From Candidatus Acidiferrales bacterium (GTDB lineage: Bacteria > Acidobacteriota > Terriglobia > Acidiferrales > UBA7541), in NCBI GenBank assembly GCA_035934015.1, contig DASYYH010000026.1, positions 62,001 through 126,000 of the forward strand: a DNA stretch of 64,000 bases, given 5' to 3'. Positions 794-9,106 of the stretch are shown one piece after another (within the stretch, counting starts at the first letter, position 1; every line of letters starts with the position of its first letter). A program made the translations under genes and the position numbers. Under the pieces are notes generated by a model. It had not been told where the DNA came from, made no database searches, and saw only the letters and a list, made by a program, of their open reading frames with translations.

Positions 794-1390
794 TTAAAGA
801 GACTGAAACGCCAGCGTGATTTCGACGACGCGGTGAGTCACTGCGTCGCAGGACACTTCCATTGATTGCGGCACGTCTTGCCCAGTCCAATCGAACGAGT
901 AAAACAGTAATTCTAGCTTGCGTGTACCTCTTACGGAAGGGCCGCGTGATTCAGGGTTGCCATAGAGTTCCTCGATGCGTTGGCAAGAATCCCCAAGCTC
1001 AAGCCCGCGTCCAGTTTTTAGATTCGCAAATATTCTGCCGTTCGCTTGGCCTTGGCAGTCAGCTCCTGAGCGGGATCCAAGCGTCGAAGCCGTTACTGTC
1101 TGCACGATGCGATCATTTCCGACTTCGACACTCAGGATTTTGTCAACGCAGCCTGTTGACCAGAGAAGCCCTGTAGGACTCGCACTCGGAGTTCCCAACT
1201 CTGATATTTGCATTGCTGACGAACCTTTTGATGACCCCGGCCGCAAACCAGCCAAAGTCAACTCATTATGGCGCTTCGGCTTCACGTCCGATGAAGTCTG
1301 GACTCTCTCAGTGGCGACTGCTTCGACCGCTGCAATCAGTAGAGCCGCGATGCTAGCGAGCCGCCAAAATCTCTTCCATACGGGCTTCAA
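794..1390 (-). CDS. Exported protein of unknown function
   Basis: The open frame reaches back to 1522, but most of that upstream part overlaps the preceding gene. I chose TTG at 1390, which has GGGGAAG about 6 bases upstream and gives a clean signal peptide (KPVWKRF, then a hydrophobic LASIAALLIAAVEAVA core). The product is about 198 residues with several cysteines and no recognised domain. The start overlaps the end of the upstream gene (stop at 1353) by 38 bases, which suggests translational coupling. Function unknown; the start is an inference. Confidence 0.55.
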   Translation of the reverse strand: MKPVWKRFWRLASIAALLIAAVEAVATERVQTSSDVKPKRHNELTLAGLRPGSSKGSSAMQISELGTPSASPTGLLWSTGCVDKILSVEVGNDRIVQTVTASTLGSRSGADCQGQANGRIFANLKTGRGLELGDSCQRIEELYGNPESRGPSVRGTRKLELLFYSFDWTGQDVPQSMEVSCDAVTHRVVEITLAFQSL

Positions 1391-2036
1391 AATTTTCTTC
1401 CCCTTCGGACCACAGCCGATTGCGCTCCACGGGTATAGTCGCCTCAATACGTTGCATCCAATCGAAAAGCTTCCGAATGTTTTCGCGGGTCCGTTCTTGA
1501 TATACGCGCCGGTTTTCCGCAAACGACATCACCGTGACGAAGTTTGCCTCGTCAGGGTGTGCCGCAGCAGCTCGCTGCCTTTCATCGAACCCGAGCAGAC
1601 CGGCATGGCCGGTGAAAAAGTGCTCGAACCCCGCGTCAATCAGGAAATGGCCGCTCTCTCGCCAAACACCACCATCGAAATCCTCACCATTGCAGAAAAT
1701 CGCCAACGGCTGTGGCTGCAACTCCCAGCGATCATGCGCCAAGTCGTAGGTCCACAGGTCCCAGGAAGCTTTGGTTTCGTAGCCGCAATCGCCGTGCACG
1801 TGCTCGCGAGCCACATCGGTCACTGCAGTTGCATCAAAATTGCCTGACCTGAGGTCGAGTTCGACAATTGGAGTCTCGCTTGTATCCACCGCTCGGATGA
1901 CGAGTTCTGTAAAGCTCTGTCTCCCAGTTGAGAAGGGAACCGTCTCCAAAAATGCCTTCCACCGTTCGACGAGCGTCTCCTCTGAGAAACCTCTTATCCA
2001 AACACTCGCGTAGGCGTGGTTTGCCACGGGAGGCAT
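1353..2036 (-). CDS. Conserved-looking hypothetical protein, cytoplasmic
   Basis: A 227-residue soluble protein without signal peptide or membrane segments, rich in aromatic and acidic residues. It opens with MPPVANHAYASVW and ends in a charged helix (ENFEARMEEIL). I do not recognise the family. Codon use and the long uninterrupted frame support a real gene. The ATG at 2036 sits inside a TATAATG string with no good ribosome-binding site, so the exact start is uncertain. The downstream gene starts within its last 38 bases. Confidence 0.6.
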   Translation of the reverse strand: MPPVANHAYASVWIRGFSEETLVERWKAFLETVPFSTGRQSFTELVIRAVDTSETPIVELDLRSGNFDATAVTDVAREHVHGDCGYETKASWDLWTYDLAHDRWELQPQPLAIFCNGEDFDGGVWRESGHFLIDAGFEHFFTGHAGLLGFDERQRAAAAHPDEANFVTVMSFAENRRVYQERTRENIRKLFDWMQRIEATIPVERNRLWSEGEENFEARMEEILAAR

Positions 2037-2110: not shown

Positions 2111-4993
2111 TTACTTCTTTTCAGGCGGTTTTTCTTTAGTTCCCACGTCTGAAGAAATTCCCAACATTCGCGCTCGTAACGTTTCACCGAGGCCGGCGAA
2201 AACATCCGAGCATGTGTCGCGCAAACGCTCTTCGGCCGCCTTCGACAAGGTCTCAAGCACGCCTTTCGAGTGCTGGCCAAGAGTGGTCGCCGAGGCGAGC
2301 AGCCACGAATTCGACGTATTTTCAAGCCGCTCTTTGTATTGCTCGATGGACTGTTCGACGGCCACTTTCATCTGTTCCAGCCAAGCCTTCTGCTCCGCTT
2401 CGCGTTTGGCATAAAAGGCCTCGACAAGAGGTTTCAATTGTTCTTCGAGCTGCTGGCGAGCGATCTTTGCTCCCTGAACCATACGCTCTTCCACACGCGA
2501 ATCGAAATCACTGAGCGCCTGATTCGCGCCTTCTTGCATCTCCGCTTGCGTTCGGTCCGATGAAGCCTTGGCCGCTTCCTCGAAGCGCGCAAGACCCGCG
2601 GTCGTGATTCGCATCATTTCATCAGTTACGCCCGCCGTTGCAATCTTGGCAGCGTCTTCGATCTGCTCGCGAGTGCGTTCCCGGACTTCCTTGGCACCTT
2701 CTTCGATCAGGCCTTGGGCGTGCTCGACGTAGCTCCGGCTGTAATGATCGAGCTCGGAAGCAAACATACGGGACAGTTCCGCGGCGCGGTCGCGCATGCC
2801 GCCGGTCGACTGTTCGAGCATTTTTTCAAGCGCCGACTGCATGCTCGTTTGCGCTTTCTTTTGATACCAGTCCGAAGCCTTGTAAAGTGCCTCAAACGTC
2901 GTATGCGTCGTTTCCGTGGTCTTGGCGTCCAGCTCTTCTTCCATTTTCGCTAATGCAGTCCGGCAAGATTGCTCGAATTCCGCAGGCAACTCTTCTGTTT
3001 GCTTGCGCATGCGTTCGAGCGAAGCCATCAGAGCTTGTTCGGAAGCATCGTGCATCCCCGCGCGAAATTGTGCCAAGGCGTCTTCCGCGCTTTGTCCGGC
3101 GTTCGCGAGCTGTTCTGCTGTTTTTCGAGCGCGATCAAGCTGCGGACCCAGTTGCTGTTCGATCTCTTCCGCCAGGCGGCGCATGGCATCGTCCGCCAAA
3201 TCGTTGATGGGCTTTTCGAGCTCGCCCGCCTTCTTCTGAATTTCTTCTTCGACGCGCTGGCTCAATTTCTCCGTCTGCGACGCCAGCAGTGTGTCCATTT
3301 GGTGCCGGGCAATATCATACGAAGCCCGCGACATGGCTTCGACTTGCTGCGAGATTTCTTCTGCGTGGCGGGCGGCATCGTTCGTCTTGCTAGCCGCTCC
3401 TTCAGCGCGTTCCCGTTCCTGCTCAAGATTGGCGCACAAGCCTGCAATGTTCTTCTGAGCTTCGGAGGCAGCTTCGTTCAGAACATTCTGGAGCGACGCG
3501 CTTCGCGCGGATATTTCTTCCTCGGCCCGCGCCGTTGCCGCTTGCGAAATCTGGTTCAACTGCGCGCTCATGCGCTCAGAGGCTCCAGCCAGCGCGGCAT
3601 CAAATTGCTCACGCCACTTCTTCGCGACGCCGGTGGAATCCGCGCTAACACGATCGAGCGTTTTCGCCTGCAGCTTGCCCGCGGCGTCCTCGATTTCTTT
3701 TCGCCAATTGGCGAGCCGGTCTTTCGCGGCTTCATCCAATTGTTGCAGCATTTCCTTCGCCGGAGGGATTACTGTGGCAGACGTCCCTATAGGCGCGAGC
3801 TTTCCGGAAGCTTGCTCGACAGCTTGCTGGACCGATTGTTTCACGGCCAGTTCAATCGTTTGCCGCACGCTCTGCTGGACAGTTTGCTCGGCGAGCTTCG
3901 CGGCGGATTTTTCGACGACGCGTTGCACAGCGGCGCGTACGTGCGCGTCCAATTCCTCTGGTTTTGGGATAGCGGCTTTCCGCGCCTGTTCGAATGCGGT
4001 GAGCGTGTTCTTCACCACTTGTTGGGTCGCTTGTTCGACCAACTCATGCAATGATCCGTGGACGGCTTTTTGAACCGCGCCTTGCACCGATGCTTCGGCG
4101 GCCTTGGCGGCCGATTCTTGGACAGCCTCGTTTACCGTGGCGCGCAGCTGCGATTCCACTTGTTCGCGAGCCGTACGCACTTCGTGAGCAACGGCCTCCG
4201 CTGCACCGCCTTGCATGGACTGACGGAGGTGTTGTTTGGCCTCGGCGAGGAGCCGCGCCATTTGGCGTGCCATAGACATTGATTCCTGCGCCTGAGACTG
4301 AGCTTGCTGTGCCGACGCAGGAGTTGGGAGTACGCGAACCTTGCTCTCGGCGGAAGCAATGCTAGCCGCTTCCGCGGGCGCTTCGGCCGGCGGGGCTGGC
4401 GGTTCAGTGCGGGGCTCTTTTTCTGCTATGCGAAGCGCAGAAGAATCTAGCACGGATGGAGTATCTTCCATCGTGCTTCGTACGGACTGTTCCGCCGTTG
4501 CTGAAGGCGCTGCCGACGGGGCGATGGGTATTTCCAGTGAGGGCTCTTCGTTTGGCAAAGGGAACCAGTCAGCTGGAGGGAAGGCAATGCCCCACACATT
4601 GCCCGGCGTGGGGAATTCAACTCCGATCTGAAAGAGTTCTCGTACCGTGCGTGGCCTCTGCACCCATGCAACCCGTCCATCAACAATGCGCGGCGGCGCG
4701 TCCGAATCCGCCCGCGGAATTTCAATTGTGATCTGGGAGGTCTTTGGAACATAGTGCTTGGACTGGTATTTGCAGCCGTGGCAGTTAATCGATACCGTGG
4801 AAGTCCGCTCTTTGAATGCCTGACCGAGCGCATCTACACCAATAACGGTGATCGGCACAGTCTGCGCAATTCGCGTGCTGCGTCGCTTCTGGACTCCAGG
4901 GTCGTTTGATGGTTTCGACTCGGTCACACTACAAACCGCCCCCCTCAGAGGCAATTTACAAATATTACCAGCAGGGAGGGCAGAGCTATCCAT
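2111..4993 (-). CDS. PilZ-domain protein with very long coiled-coil region
   Basis: A 960-residue protein with no signal peptide. Residues about 35-130 form a PilZ-like beta-barrel: an arginine motif (KRRSTR), TVSINCHG, and a closing GVEF strand. The usual D/NxSxxG motif reads SINCHG, so c-di-GMP binding is not assured. A Pro/Ala/Glu-rich linker follows (about 140-225), then some 700 residues of charged, Ala/Glu/Gln-rich heptads with repeated AVQxA / VEQA-type units. That is typical of an extended coiled coil or amphipathic helical rod. Only a short tail (SDVGTKEKPPEKK) follows. ATG at 4993 is preferred to the TTG three codons earlier. A scaffolding or filament role is inference. Confidence 0.8.
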   Translation of the reverse strand: MDSSALPAGNICKLPLRGAVCSVTESKPSNDPGVQKRRSTRIAQTVPITVIGVDALGQAFKERTSTVSINCHGCKYQSKHYVPKTSQITIEIPRADSDAPPRIVDGRVAWVQRPRTVRELFQIGVEFPTPGNVWGIAFPPADWFPLPNEEPSLEIPIAPSAAPSATAEQSVRSTMEDTPSVLDSSALRIAEKEPRTEPPAPPAEAPAEAASIASAESKVRVLPTPASAQQAQSQAQESMSMARQMARLLAEAKQHLRQSMQGGAAEAVAHEVRTAREQVESQLRATVNEAVQESAAKAAEASVQGAVQKAVHGSLHELVEQATQQVVKNTLTAFEQARKAAIPKPEELDAHVRAAVQRVVEKSAAKLAEQTVQQSVRQTIELAVKQSVQQAVEQASGKLAPIGTSATVIPPAKEMLQQLDEAAKDRLANWRKEIEDAAGKLQAKTLDRVSADSTGVAKKWREQFDAALAGASERMSAQLNQISQAATARAEEEISARSASLQNVLNEAASEAQKNIAGLCANLEQERERAEGAASKTNDAARHAEEISQQVEAMSRASYDIARHQMDTLLASQTEKLSQRVEEEIQKKAGELEKPINDLADDAMRRLAEEIEQQLGPQLDRARKTAEQLANAGQSAEDALAQFRAGMHDASEQALMASLERMRKQTEELPAEFEQSCRTALAKMEEELDAKTTETTHTTFEALYKASDWYQKKAQTSMQSALEKMLEQSTGGMRDRAAELSRMFASELDHYSRSYVEHAQGLIEEGAKEVRERTREQIEDAAKIATAGVTDEMMRITTAGLARFEEAAKASSDRTQAEMQEGANQALSDFDSRVEERMVQGAKIARQQLEEQLKPLVEAFYAKREAEQKAWLEQMKVAVEQSIEQYKERLENTSNSWLLASATTLGQHSKGVLETLSKAAEERLRDTCSDVFAGLGETLRARMLGISSDVGTKEKPPEKK

Positions 4994-5078
4994 ATTGGAC
5001 AAGGGGGTGGCGCGAAAGAGGTATCATTCAAAAGCGCGCAGCGGACTTTAGATGACCTCAAAGGCCAGACAGGACAAA

Positions 5079-5387
5079 TTATCGGGGCGCAGTTGGGTCC
5101 TTGCTACCTAAAACGGCGTCCTTCAGCTCCTTGGCTATCCAAACCGGGCCAACCATAAAGTAGATTAGTCCTTGGAAGAACGCTGGCTTGTTTCCTTCGA
5201 TGCGATGACCACCAAATAGGAAAATCCACCCAAGGACAAAAAGTCCCAGTCCGAAACGCCATCGCATCATCAGGAGCAAAACGAGTCCCGCAATCACCAT
5301 CGGGATACCGATCCCATGGAAGATCTTATTCCATCGATTTGTATGCTCGCGATCGTATCGCGCCATGTATTCGGAAAGATCCGGCAT
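5079..5387 (-). CDS. DUF962 / Mpo1-like (YGL010w-type) membrane protein
   Basis: A 102-residue protein with a conserved early HxxxxN-type motif (REHTNRWNKIFHGIG), two hydrophobic helices (about 29-47 and 49-60) and GHRIEGNKPAFFQG, followed by an amphipathic C-terminus. This matches DUF962/Mpo1-like proteins. The yeast member Mpo1 is an Fe(II)-dependent dioxygenase of fatty-acid alpha-oxidation; the bacterial role is not established. The conserved His residues are present. It is divergent from the amidohydrolase gene, with about 160 bases between the starts. The family call is good; enzymatic function is only suggested by family. Confidence 0.75.
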   Translation of the reverse strand: MPDLSEYMARYDREHTNRWNKIFHGIGIPMVIAGLVLLLMMRWRFGLGLFVLGWIFLFGGHRIEGNKPAFFQGLIYFMVGPVWIAKELKDAVLGSKDPTAPR

Positions 5388-5548
5388 CTAACGCCTCGAC
5401 AAAGCAGTCTCGCTCTTATACCCCAGTGGCGATGCGACGGGCAAGAAGCTGTTTTCTTACTGCAACGCACTGCCGTTGCAGCGCGTCTTCTTCGTTGACA
5501 TTGACCTTTTCCCCGTGCTACACGCGAGTCATCTGGAGTGTGATCGTA

Positions 5549-6799
5549 ATGACCAAAAGTTCGATGCGTGTCGCTGTCTTGTTGCTCGTGTTCTCCTGCT
5601 GTGCTTATGCGCAGGAAAAGCCAATCGTTATCGCCGCAAGCACGGTGCTTGACGGCCGCGGTAAAGTGTTGCACGACACTCGCATAGTCGTCGAGAATGG
5701 CAAAATCATCGGCATCGATCCGAATGCCGGACCCGTCACCTATGACCTTCGCGGGTTGACGATTCTACCCGGGCTGATTGATTGCCACGTCCACATCACG
5801 TACCACTTCGGCCCCAATGGGCGCGCTGAGGACAAGAACGAAACACCGGAACAGGCCGCGCTTGCATATGAATCAAATGCGTGGCTGACCCTGATGGGTG
5901 GGTTCACGACGGTCCAAAGCGTCGGTGCGCCAGAAGACAAATCTTTGCGCGACATGATCAATCGCGGTGAGATTCCGGGCCCGCGGATTCTTACGGCTCT
6001 GCATCCTTTGTTTGGGCGAGGTCCCGCGACTGGCACTCCGGACCAAATTCGCGCCTTCGTCGACAAGGTCGCCGGCGACGGCGCAGACCTGATTAAGATT
6101 TTCGCTTCGCAGAGTATTCGTGACGGCGGCGGACCAACGCTTTCTCAGGAACAACTCGACGCCGCGTGCAGTGAAGCGAAAAAACGCGGCCTCAGAACTC
6201 TCGTGCATGCTTACCGGGATTCCGTGCGCATGGCCACGCTCGCAGGTTGCACGGAGGTCGAGCACGGGACATTTGCGACAAATGATGACCTAAAATTGAT
6301 GGCTGACCATGGTACTTACTTTGATCCGCAAGTCGGTCTCGTCATCCAAAATTATCTCGATAACGAGCAACGATACCTCGGCATTGGCAATTACACTGAA
6401 TCCGGATTCGAGCAAATGAAACAGGCGCTGCCGCTCGACGCCGACCTTTATCATCGTGCGCTAAGAACTCCTGAATTGAAAATCGTGTTTGGAACTGATG
6501 CTGTTGCCGGCGCGCACGGTCGAAACGCCGAAGAGCTTGTCGATCGGGTGCGCGATGGTGGCCAGGATTCTATGTCTGCGCTTGTTTCCGCGAATTCCCT
6601 TGCGGCGGAATCGCTCAATTTACAAAATGAAATTGGCTCCATTGCGCCCGGTCTTGAGGCCGACGTTATTGCTGTCGATGGGAATCCGATTGAGGACATT
6701 ACCGCAGTCCGTCGAGTCGTATTTGTCATGAAGAGTGGAGTCGTATACAAGAACGTTACCTCGACCCATATCCCGAAATATGGCGGTGTGACGCCCTAG
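5549..6799 (+). CDS. Exported amidohydrolase (imidazolonepropionase/prolidase-like)
   Basis: A 416-residue metal-dependent hydrolase of the amidohydrolase superfamily with a signal peptide (VAVLLLVFSCCAYAQ). Metal-site landmarks are visible in order: DCHVH after the LPGLID strand, a LIKIF lysine strand, LVHAYRD, VEHGTF and FGTDAV. The C-terminal composite beta-domain ends with GLEADVIAVDGNP. Likely substrates are cyclic amides or dipeptides; the exact substrate cannot be read. ATG at 5549 was chosen over a start 210 bases upstream because it has GGAG nearby and places the signal peptide at the N-terminus. It lies 39 bases before the M28 peptidase gene, probably in one operon for peptide breakdown. 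Confidence 0.85.
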   Translation: MTKSSMRVAVLLLVFSCCAYAQEKPIVIAASTVLDGRGKVLHDTRIVVENGKIIGIDPNAGPVTYDLRGLTILPGLIDCHVHITYHFGPNGRAEDKNETPEQAALAYESNAWLTLMGGFTTVQSVGAPEDKSLRDMINRGEIPGPRILTALHPLFGRGPATGTPDQIRAFVDKVAGDGADLIKIFASQSIRDGGGPTLSQEQLDAACSEAKKRGLRTLVHAYRDSVRMATLAGCTEVEHGTFATNDDLKLMADHGTYFDPQVGLVIQNYLDNEQRYLGIGNYTESGFEQMKQALPLDADLYHRALRTPELKIVFGTDAVAGAHGRNAEELVDRVRDGGQDSMSALVSANSLAAESLNLQNEIGSIAPGLEADVIAVDGNPIEDITAVRRVVFVMKSGVVYKNVTSTHIPKYGGVTP

Positions 6800-6838
6800 A
6801 ATTCTTCAAATTGATTGTCGTTAATCTCAGGAGGTCCA

Positions 6839-9106
6839 ATGCGTCGTTTTGCTTTATTGATGGGTTTGATTCTCTGCCTGCCTCCGGTCACTGTCGGCCA
6901 GCAGGAAGAGCAGGCGGGTCTTGCCGGCTATTTCGGCAATTCTTCAGCAGATGAACAGAACTGGGAGCAGAAATTTCAAGCGATACCCTCGCCGAACAAT
7001 ATGAAGGAGTATATGCAGCTGCTTGCGGCGCGACCGCACCACGTGGGTTCGCCATACGACGCGCAGAACAGCCAATGGATTCTCGCTCAGTACAAGAAAT
7101 GGGGCTGGGATGCGCACATCGAAACCTTCTATGTTCTTTTTCCGACTCCGAAAGAGCGCGAGCTCGAACTTGTCTCGCCGACGCATTACATCGCGAAGCT
7201 TGAAGAACCGACCGTCCCGGGAGATCCAACTTCTTCGCAGCACAATGAGCAATTGCCCACCTACAACGCATATTCCGCCGACGGCGATGTCACAGCGCCG
7301 CTTGTCTACGTGAATTACGGCGTGCCGGAAGACTATGAACAACTTGCGCGGATGGGTATTTCCGTGAAGGGCAAGATCGTTATCACGCGCTATGGCCATT
7401 CGTGGCGTGGAATCAAGCCGAAGCTCGCCGCGGAACATGGCGCGATTGGCTGCCTGATTTACTCCGATCCGCGAGACGATGGCTATGCTCAAGGCGACGT
7501 CTATCCGAAAGGCCCATGGCGCCCAAAGTATGGCGTTCAGCGGGGCAGCGTCATGAAGATGGAACTTTATCCAGGCGATCCTTTGACGCCGGGAATCGGC
7601 GCGACAAGGGATGCCAAGAGGCTCGCAATCAAGGATGCGAAGACAATCGAGAGCATTCCTGTCCAGCCAATTTCCTATGGCGATGCCCAACCTTTGCTTG
7701 AGGCGCTCGGTGGCCCTGTTGCTCCGGCCGCTTGGCGCGGCGCTTTGCCAATCACGTACCACGTCGGCCCGGGTCCTGCGAAAGTCCACCTGAAGCTTGC
7801 TTTCAACTGGGACATCAAGCCGATCCACGACGTGATCGCGAAACTTCCGGGCTCTCAATTCGCTGACGAGTGGGTGATTCGCGGCAACCACTACGACGGC
7901 TGGGTCAACGGCGCGGAAGATCCAATCGCGGGCCAGGTTGCGGAGCTCGAGGAAGCGCGCGCGATGGGAGAACTATACAAACAGGGGTGGCGTCCGAAGC
8001 GTACGATTATTTACTGCGCTTGGGATGGCGAGGAACCAGCCTTGCTGGGTTCGACGGAATGGGTTGAAGAGCATATCGGTGAATTGACTGCTCACGCTGT
8101 CGCGTACATCAATTCCGACACGAATGGCCGCGGCTATCTGCAAGCCGAAGGCTCACACTCGCTCGAGGCGCTCGTCAACAACATCGCGGACGAAATCCGG
8201 GACCCGGAAAAAGATATGTCCGTAGGCAAACGCTTGCGTCTCGCGGAGATTTTGCGTGCTCAAGATGCAAAGGACCGCCAGCGCCTCGAATCGAATGGGG
8301 ACCTCATTCTTGGTGATTTGGGCTCTGGCTCGGATTACTCGCCGTTTATCGATCATGCCGGCATCTCCTCGATCAATTATGGTTTCGGAGGCGAAGACGG
8401 TGGCGGGATTTATCACTCGATTTACGATGATTACTACTGGTATTCGCATTTCGGCGATCCGACCGAGGAGTATGGACGCACGTTGGCGCAAATGGTGGGC
8501 ACAACCGTGATGCGTCTGGCGGATGCGGAAGTAGTCCCGGTCAATTTCGACGGGCTTTCGGCTGCTCTCGATCGCTTCGAATCGGAGATCAAGAAACTTG
8601 CCAAGACAGAAGCCGACCAGATCAGCGAGTTGAACAGGGAAATTGAGGAAGGCGTTTTTACTGCGACGGCTGACCCGACGAAGACCTCTGTTCCGCCATC
8701 GCCGGAGCAGCCCGAGCCTACGCTCGATTTTTCTCCGATGGATACCGCGATCGCCAATGTGCGCAGCAGCTCGCAACGTTACAAAGCCGCATTCCAGAAA
8801 GCACAACAGAGCGGGAGCGTGGCGAGCGCTCAGCTCGCTTCCATCAATCAGGCGCTCATTCAAACGGAACGCAGTTTGCTGAGCGCGAATGGTCTCCCCG
8901 GCCGGCCGTGGTACAAGCATGAACTTTATGCTCCCGGAATCTTCACAGGTTATGGCGTGAAGACGATTCCTGCTGTCCGCGAAGCGATCGAGCAGAAGAA
9001 TTGGTCGCAAGCAACGGAAGAAATTGACATCGTTGCAGGAGTTCTGCAAAAAGAAGCCGATTCTATCAACGCCGCAGCATCAGCGTTGGAATCAGCGGAC
9101 CAGTAG
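6839..9106 (+). CDS. Exported M28 metallopeptidase, glutamate carboxypeptidase II-like
   Basis: A 755-residue exported zinc peptidase with the architecture of PSMA/transferrin-receptor-like proteins. A signal peptide ending in VTVGQQ is followed by a PA insert domain, the M28 catalytic domain and a helical dimerisation domain. Catalytic features include NHYDGWVNGAEDP (first zinc ligand and bridging Asp), WDGEEPALLGS (general-base Glu and ligand), NSDTN, and YHSIYDD (last His). It should remove C-terminal residues from peptides in the periplasm or outside the cell. ATG at 6839 follows AGGAGG by 4 bases. It is probably co-transcribed with the upstream amidohydrolase. Confidence 0.9.
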   Translation: MRRFALLMGLILCLPPVTVGQQEEQAGLAGYFGNSSADEQNWEQKFQAIPSPNNMKEYMQLLAARPHHVGSPYDAQNSQWILAQYKKWGWDAHIETFYVLFPTPKERELELVSPTHYIAKLEEPTVPGDPTSSQHNEQLPTYNAYSADGDVTAPLVYVNYGVPEDYEQLARMGISVKGKIVITRYGHSWRGIKPKLAAEHGAIGCLIYSDPRDDGYAQGDVYPKGPWRPKYGVQRGSVMKMELYPGDPLTPGIGATRDAKRLAIKDAKTIESIPVQPISYGDAQPLLEALGGPVAPAAWRGALPITYHVGPGPAKVHLKLAFNWDIKPIHDVIAKLPGSQFADEWVIRGNHYDGWVNGAEDPIAGQVAELEEARAMGELYKQGWRPKRTIIYCAWDGEEPALLGSTEWVEEHIGELTAHAVAYINSDTNGRGYLQAEGSHSLEALVNNIADEIRDPEKDMSVGKRLRLAEILRAQDAKDRQRLESNGDLILGDLGSGSDYSPFIDHAGISSINYGFGGEDGGGIYHSIYDDYYWYSHFGDPTEEYGRTLAQMVGTTVMRLADAEVVPVNFDGLSAALDRFESEIKKLAKTEADQISELNREIEEGVFTATADPTKTSVPPSPEQPEPTLDFSPMDTAIANVRSSSQRYKAAFQKAQQSGSVASAQLASINQALIQTERSLLSANGLPGRPWYKHELYAPGIFTGYGVKTIPAVREAIEQKNWSQATEEIDIVAGVLQKEADSINAAASALESADQ

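Follow-up and report, generated by a model that had tools for sequence, protein, structure and literature searches.

XCC6012 of Xanthomonas is a tetrameric PilZ protein with a coiled coil (PDB 3RQA and 3PH1). Its motifs are not intact, and ITC did not reliably detect binding of c-di-GMP (PMC3131395). The coil comes from a short helix of three heptads inside the PilZ fold, which assembles into a parallel four-stranded coil (PMC3131395). CsdK1 and CsdK2 of Myxococcus xanthus are PilZ-DnaK chaperones (PMC10313047). Scy and FilP of Streptomyces are bacterial coiled-coil scaffolds, and hendecads have been discussed for this group (PMC6599971, PMC9858780). The tetramerisation domain of VASP is among the right-handed coiled coils that have repeats of the 11- and 15-residue type, according to a passage in PMC4721544 that cites Kuehnel et al. 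2004. When we searched the literature for PilZ domains with a coiled coil in Acidobacteria, we found no paper.

Here we describe a protein with a modified PilZ head and a non-heptad helical rod, which is a new architecture in the PilZ superfamily. It is encoded in a 64,000-nucleotide stretch (the window) of a 3.37 Mb draft genome of a soil acidobacterium (Candidatus Acidiferrales). The features are as follows, with residues numbered from the GTG at 4927:

2111 to 4927, minus strand: the PilZ-rod gene (open reading frame; start column common to orthologues)
4928 to 5002, minus strand: upstream in-frame extension (TTG 5002, ATG 4993), not conserved and probably untranslated
4553 to 4894, minus strand: PilZ-fold head, residues 12-125, with the family W-loop GNxWGIxxPPxDW (AF2 model, fold searches, conservation)
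4871 to 4885, minus strand: RxxxR motif (RRSTR), both arginines invariant in 70/70 heads
4775 to 4792, minus strand: degenerate second motif, SINCHG replacing D/NxSxxG (D/N position altered in 68/70 heads; HG invariant)
4304 to 4552, minus strand: disordered linker rich in Pro, Ala and Glu, residues 126-208 (pLDDT around 40; low identity and irregular indels)
2153 to 4303, minus strand: all-helical rod, residues 209-925, with a hydrophobic period of about 3.74 (AF2 helices, periodicity, indel quantisation)
3803 to 4135, minus strand: tetrad-like AVQxA/VEQA runs, residues ~265-375, with a local period of about 3.9
2153 to 2950, minus strand: most conserved, C-terminal module of the rod, with invariant H, W-Y, S, R and W residues (alignment)
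1353 to 2036, minus strand: X227, conserved downstream neighbour, 75 bp after the stop (synteny)
5079 to 5387, minus strand: Mpo1-like gene (PF06127), upstream neighbour, 77 bp before the TTG at 5002 (Pfam E = 2.7e-22; synteny in 11 loci)

A single open frame on the minus strand extends from the TTG at 5002 to the stop at 2111 (963 amino acids from the TTG). An earlier reading from the sequence only had taken the protein to have 960 residues. The frame is indeed open from the corresponding ATG at 4993, but the orthologues begin at the column of residue 26 of the TTG frame (with an ATG in L047 and, in L049, with a GTG before which no in-frame start occurs), so the GTG at 4927, which gives 938 amino acids plus the stop, is the likelier start. 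We found over 60 orthologues that keep the rod, with a median length of 928 amino acids. In one of them (L078:6125-8884, genome G014), the reading frame of the first ~50 residues does not match that of the conserved head, which may reflect an assembly frameshift or a damaged gene.

The PilZ head

The head matches the Pfam PilZ model (PF07238) with E = 8e-4, but its score of 20.1 bits is below the curated cutoff of 22.5. A paralogue from the same genome (L066) scores above the cutoff, at 23.1 bits, and 6 of 52 orthologues have matches at E ≤ 0.001. Comparing the head to PDB sequences with phmmer gave no useful match. The AlphaFold (AF2) model of the head, built from 70 heads of the family, is an uninterrupted six-stranded barrel (mean pLDDT 86.9). 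Foldseek gave nine matches to this model at E ≤ 0.001, all of them PilZ (cellulose synthase, PA0012, and Alg44), and the top rows of a VIA fold search held PilZ-containing entries, with Z up to 10.8. Because the model and both fold searches agree, we are confident in predicting that the head is a PilZ beta-barrel, as the sequence-only reading had proposed, although it falls just under the Pfam cutoff. We also considered a coil inserted within the PilZ domain, as in XCC6012, and rejected it, as the modelled barrel has no interruption.

In the second motif, the residue at the D/N position is I in 38 of the 70 heads, M in 18, S in 7, V in 2, N in 2, and L, F, or A in one each. N stands at the S position in 62 heads (S in the other 8), and the H and G that follow are invariant. 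The family has two signatures of its own: HGC..SKH, in which this H and G and the downstream S and H never vary, and the W-loop, whose N, W, P, D, and W are invariant. SINCHG had already been picked out as standing where D/NxSxxG is usual, and this is borne out, with RRSTR present too. Since D/N is replaced in 68 of the 70 heads, the altered motif is a trait of the family and is not peculiar to this protein. The doubt that had been raised about whether the head binds c-di-GMP is justified, as the family has lost D/N although it keeps RxxxR without exception.

One alternative to the scaffold that we propose below keeps the rod but makes the head a protein-protein adaptor that no longer senses c-di-GMP. 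Its new, conserved surface of HGC..SKH and the W-loop would then serve for contacts, as it does in partner-dependent PilZ domains. This would fit with the loss of D/N (N remains in 2/70 heads), with the invariant residues of the two signatures, and with XCC6012, a coiled-coil PilZ protein that lacks intact motifs and reliable binding by ITC (PMC3131395). It would not explain why RxxxR is invariant in 70/70 heads or why the head family is missing where the number of GGDEF proteins collapses (see below). We consider it possible but somewhat unlikely.

The same head is found in several other proteins. It is joined to another long rod in L066, to shorter helical tails in L076, L077, L080, and L082, to very short tails in L071, L072, and L086, and to a DnaJ J-domain with TPRs in L073:5672-6796, L074:5320-6429, and L075:5655-6794. 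Because one head is fused to rods, to short tails, and to a J-domain with TPRs, these architectures suggest that a common module, a sensor or an adaptor, serves different outputs. The J-domain/TPR proteins are possible c-di-GMP-linked co-chaperones. The genes around the second rod paralogue (QueC, a DegT aminotransferase, a glycosyltransferase, and a TPR protein) gave no coherent clue to its function. The source genome also encodes a large PilZ architecture that is unlike the PilZ-rod protein: L081:4182-6863 on contig C21 has 893 amino acids, and its PilZ match, near the C-terminus, is preceded by a long helical region that may be HEAT-like.

A helical rod with a non-heptad period

The head is followed by a linker of ~83 residues and a rod of ~717 residues. 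In a full-length AF2 model that used 52 orthologues, the rod is split into six helices of 53-177 residues (pLDDT 60-80), with breaks at about 319-322, 376-389, 567-570, 670-675, and 791-796. We saw no confident packing between helices in this monomer model (pTM 0.29). The sequence-only reading had described a helical region of about 700 residues, rich in Ala, Glu, and Gln and containing AVQxA/VEQA units. The modelled helices (209-925) and the runs at residues ~265-375 agree with this, but the description of the region as heptads was wrong.

The spectral power of the window's rod peaks at ~3.74 residues (power 6.8, versus a maximum of 2.3 among 200 shuffles of the rod), and at 3.5 residues it is at the noise level (1.1). 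The period was 3.67-3.77 in 62/62 orthologues and with three residue codings, including charge alone. Most of the paralogues that we tested have periods of 3.71-3.74, and one is at 3.67. As controls, the SMC protein of the source genome and MukB of E. coli peak at 3.45-3.52 by the same method. These results rule out a canonical left-handed heptad coiled coil. The AVQxA runs have a local period near 3.9. Periods of 3.67-3.75 correspond to 11- and 15-residue repeats; the peripheral stalk of ATP synthase is a right-handed coiled coil with an 11/15-residue repeat and this period. The rod thus has a mixed 11/15-residue repeat, the kind found in right-handed coiled coils, and from the period we infer the same handedness. 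With such a repeat, a coiled-coil predictor trained on heptads could well give the rod a misleadingly low score. The hydrophobic face spans about 120 degrees, is nearly uncharged, and is rich in L, V, I, M, and A. The back face is charged and acidic, and there is no basic belt at the edges of the hydrophobic face.

Insertions and deletions in the rod also follow the helix. Among 155 distinct events in the orthologues, nearly all sizes were 4, 7, 8, 11, 14-15, 18, 22, 25-26, 33, 36, 40, 54, 58, 66, and so on. Sizes of 2, 6, 9, 10, 12, and 13 residues were absent from these events, and 3 and 5 were nearly so. (Eleven events of length 1 are off the pattern; we suspect that these are alignment errors.) The phase coherence R was 0.71 at p = 3.58, versus a 99% null of 0.25. 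The linkers of these orthologues show almost all small lengths, and their R was 0.29, within the null (99%, 0.36). We grouped events by sequence similarity and not by placement on a tree, so their independence is approximate. Because the indels in the rod are whole helical turns and those in the linker are not, the helical phase of the rod is under selection. Several of the sizes are multiples of 18 (18, 36, 54, 72) or 22 (22, 66), as if the rod grew and shrank by tandem units of 5 and 6 turns. Rough estimates of dN/dS, with saturated dS, were 0.03-0.06 in the head and 0.05-0.11 in the rod, a sign of purifying selection. Given the indel phase, these dN/dS values, and the nearly uncharged face, we conclude that the rod is a genuine helix under constraint and that it has a preferred face.

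In a second alternative, the rod is no coiled coil. It would instead spread as a long amphipathic helix over a membrane, a storage granule, or a lipid surface, much like apolipoproteins or phasins, and carry the PilZ head to that site. The Pfam family for Apolipoprotein A1/A4/E (PF01442), which has 11/22-residue repeats, matches 29 of 52 members, with a best E-value of 3e-14, and the 3.73 period is close to the 11/3 of lipid-binding helices. (The window's protein scores 19.9-20.3 bits and L066 scores 24.3; the single members listed are far below the cutoff of 90 bits.) However, the hydrophobic face is narrow for this role, the edges lack a basic belt, and the back is acidic. Also, selection on phase over hundreds of residues is expected more from packing against protein than from a fluid surface. 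We think that a surface-bound helix is quite improbable. More improbable still is that the helices fold back into antiparallel bundles to form a compact client-binding or chaperone-like body. AF2 does split the rod into six helices, and sister paralogues do carry J-domains, but the model has no confident contacts between helices, and many segments of the rod have gained or lost whole turns, which would be hard to accommodate in paired antiparallel helices unless the partners changed together.

Distribution, neighbours and the c-di-GMP network

The PilZ-rod protein is restricted to one family of Candidatus Acidiferrales in the genomes that we searched. Among 95 genomes of the order, 88 have the head at E ≤ 0.001, and all matches with E below 1e-40 are in the family to which the window belongs. 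Outside the order, with 396 genomes sampled in the phylum, it reaches 1e-10 in one genome. The C-terminal module of the rod is in 65 of 299 genomes of the class, all in the window's own family, and mostly in frames of 800-1400 amino acids where the contig is long enough. These counts are limited by draft contigs and by sampling. Two contigs with close orthologues are titled Betaproteobacteria and Bacillota (L125 and L163), and are probably from mislabelled or contaminated MAGs.

In the window's family, the rod gene, along with the Mpo1-like gene in 11 loci, lies between recR and the conserved operon of X227 downstream. As recR directly adjoins X227 in the nearest sister families, the simplest history would be that the rod gene was inserted on the main-family lineage. 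X227 has no match in Pfam or NCBIfam. It is also present in genomes without the rod, so we do not interpret its co-occurrence as a functional link. Positions 183-2036 of the window hold X227, an overlapping frame of 242 amino acids, and a lipoprotein-like protein of 196 amino acids, all conserved and upstream of two ABC exporters; none of these genes matched Pfam or NCBIfam. Between recR and the Mpo1-like gene, at 5339-9106, the window has two plus-strand ORFs (by eye, amidohydrolase-like and M28 peptidase-like), where its relatives have tight spacing. Overall, Pfam, NCBIfam, and synteny gave no hint of function from the neighbours of the rod gene.

Two genera (g6 and g8) lack the entire head family and retain X227. 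We read two g6 loci, and in both the interval from recR to X227 is occupied by other genes. By eye, the large frames at the position of the rod gene (L176:7754-12621 and L177:1123-5783) resemble acyl-CoA dehydratase activator proteins and appear to be unrelated to it, so we do not regard them as replacements for the rod. Six genomes without the head family (five from g6 and one from g8) have just 2-4 GGDEF and 2-3 PilZ matches, versus 6-15 GGDEF and 12-24 PilZ matches in nine genomes with it. Loss of the head family accompanies a shrunken c-di-GMP network, but this is only suggestive because the genomes are few and related (two genera, and perhaps one or two losses). Conversely, the sister families f2 and f3, which lack the rod, have 10-12 GGDEF and 17-36 PilZ matches. 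This is a full network, so the network does not need the rod.

Proposed role and comparison with known systems

We propose that the protein is an oligomeric rod scaffold in the cytoplasm that is linked to the c-di-GMP network by its PilZ heads, and we give this about an even chance of being correct. A flexible tether would connect the N-terminal PilZ domain to one end of a long rod, up to ~100 nm if fully extended. The helices of the rod would pack side by side along the continuous hydrophobic stripe with its 11/15-residue repeat, as in a right-handed type of coiled coil, and this oligomerisation would gather several heads. The heads might sense c-di-GMP with the RxxxR site that they retain, or via a partner, and might accordingly position or attract other proteins as the messenger rises and falls. 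Counting against this are the lack of confident packing of the rod in AF2 (pTM 0.29), the degeneracy of the second motif in all members, the dependence of the c-di-GMP association on two genera (with f2 and f3 keeping the network without a rod), and the absence of functional hints from neighbouring genes. The sequence-only reading had suggested a structural or polar-organising role. A structural role is still the best reading, but we found no support for the polar part. A bolder version is that this is a lineage-specific, cytoskeletal-type rod under c-di-GMP control, in which heads on a right-handed (11/15-residue) coiled coil of ~100 nm organise proteins in acidobacterial cells, while sister proteins with the same head control a J-domain chaperone. 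We consider this version rather unlikely.

If the scaffold is real, then c-di-GMP signalling in a little-studied soil phylum gains a very long dedicated scaffold, a type of output that is absent from the literature that we searched. Its rod would be far longer than the right-handed coiled coils of VASP and the ATP synthase peripheral stalk, and the proteins that share one modified PilZ head would illustrate the remodelling of a binding site within a bacterial family. Whatever the function, more than 60 natural variants of the rod, with insertions quantised by helical turns, are a rare dataset on the rules of non-heptad coils of the right-handed type.

The head has the beta-barrel, and the RxxxR before its first strand, of the PilZ domains of the c-di-GMP receptors BcsA, Alg44, PA0012, and YcgR/VCA0042. 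Unlike those domains, it has lost the second motif's D/N, carries HGC..SKH and the W-loop as family-specific features, and is fused to a rod of ~717 residues, with no enzyme or YcgR-N domain. XCC6012 (VIA Z of 8.0 to the head) likewise joins a PilZ domain to helices, which oligomerise in that protein, and has degenerate c-di-GMP motifs; here, however, the non-heptad rod follows the domain, and its helices start ~83 residues past an uninterrupted barrel. CsdK1 and CsdK2 resemble the PilZ-J-domain-TPR paralogues, and not the rod protein itself, in combining a PilZ head with a chaperone part, although that part is DnaK in Myxococcus and a J-domain here. The rod shares its hydrophobic period of 3.67-3.75 with the tetramerisation domain of VASP (Kuehnel et al. 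2004, cited in PMC4721544). The coils of VASP and of the ATP synthase peripheral stalk are far shorter than 717 residues and have no PilZ head. Scy and FilP are, like this protein, long, helical, and cytoplasmic, but they come from an unrelated phylum and lack a PilZ head, so the resemblance is an analogy only.
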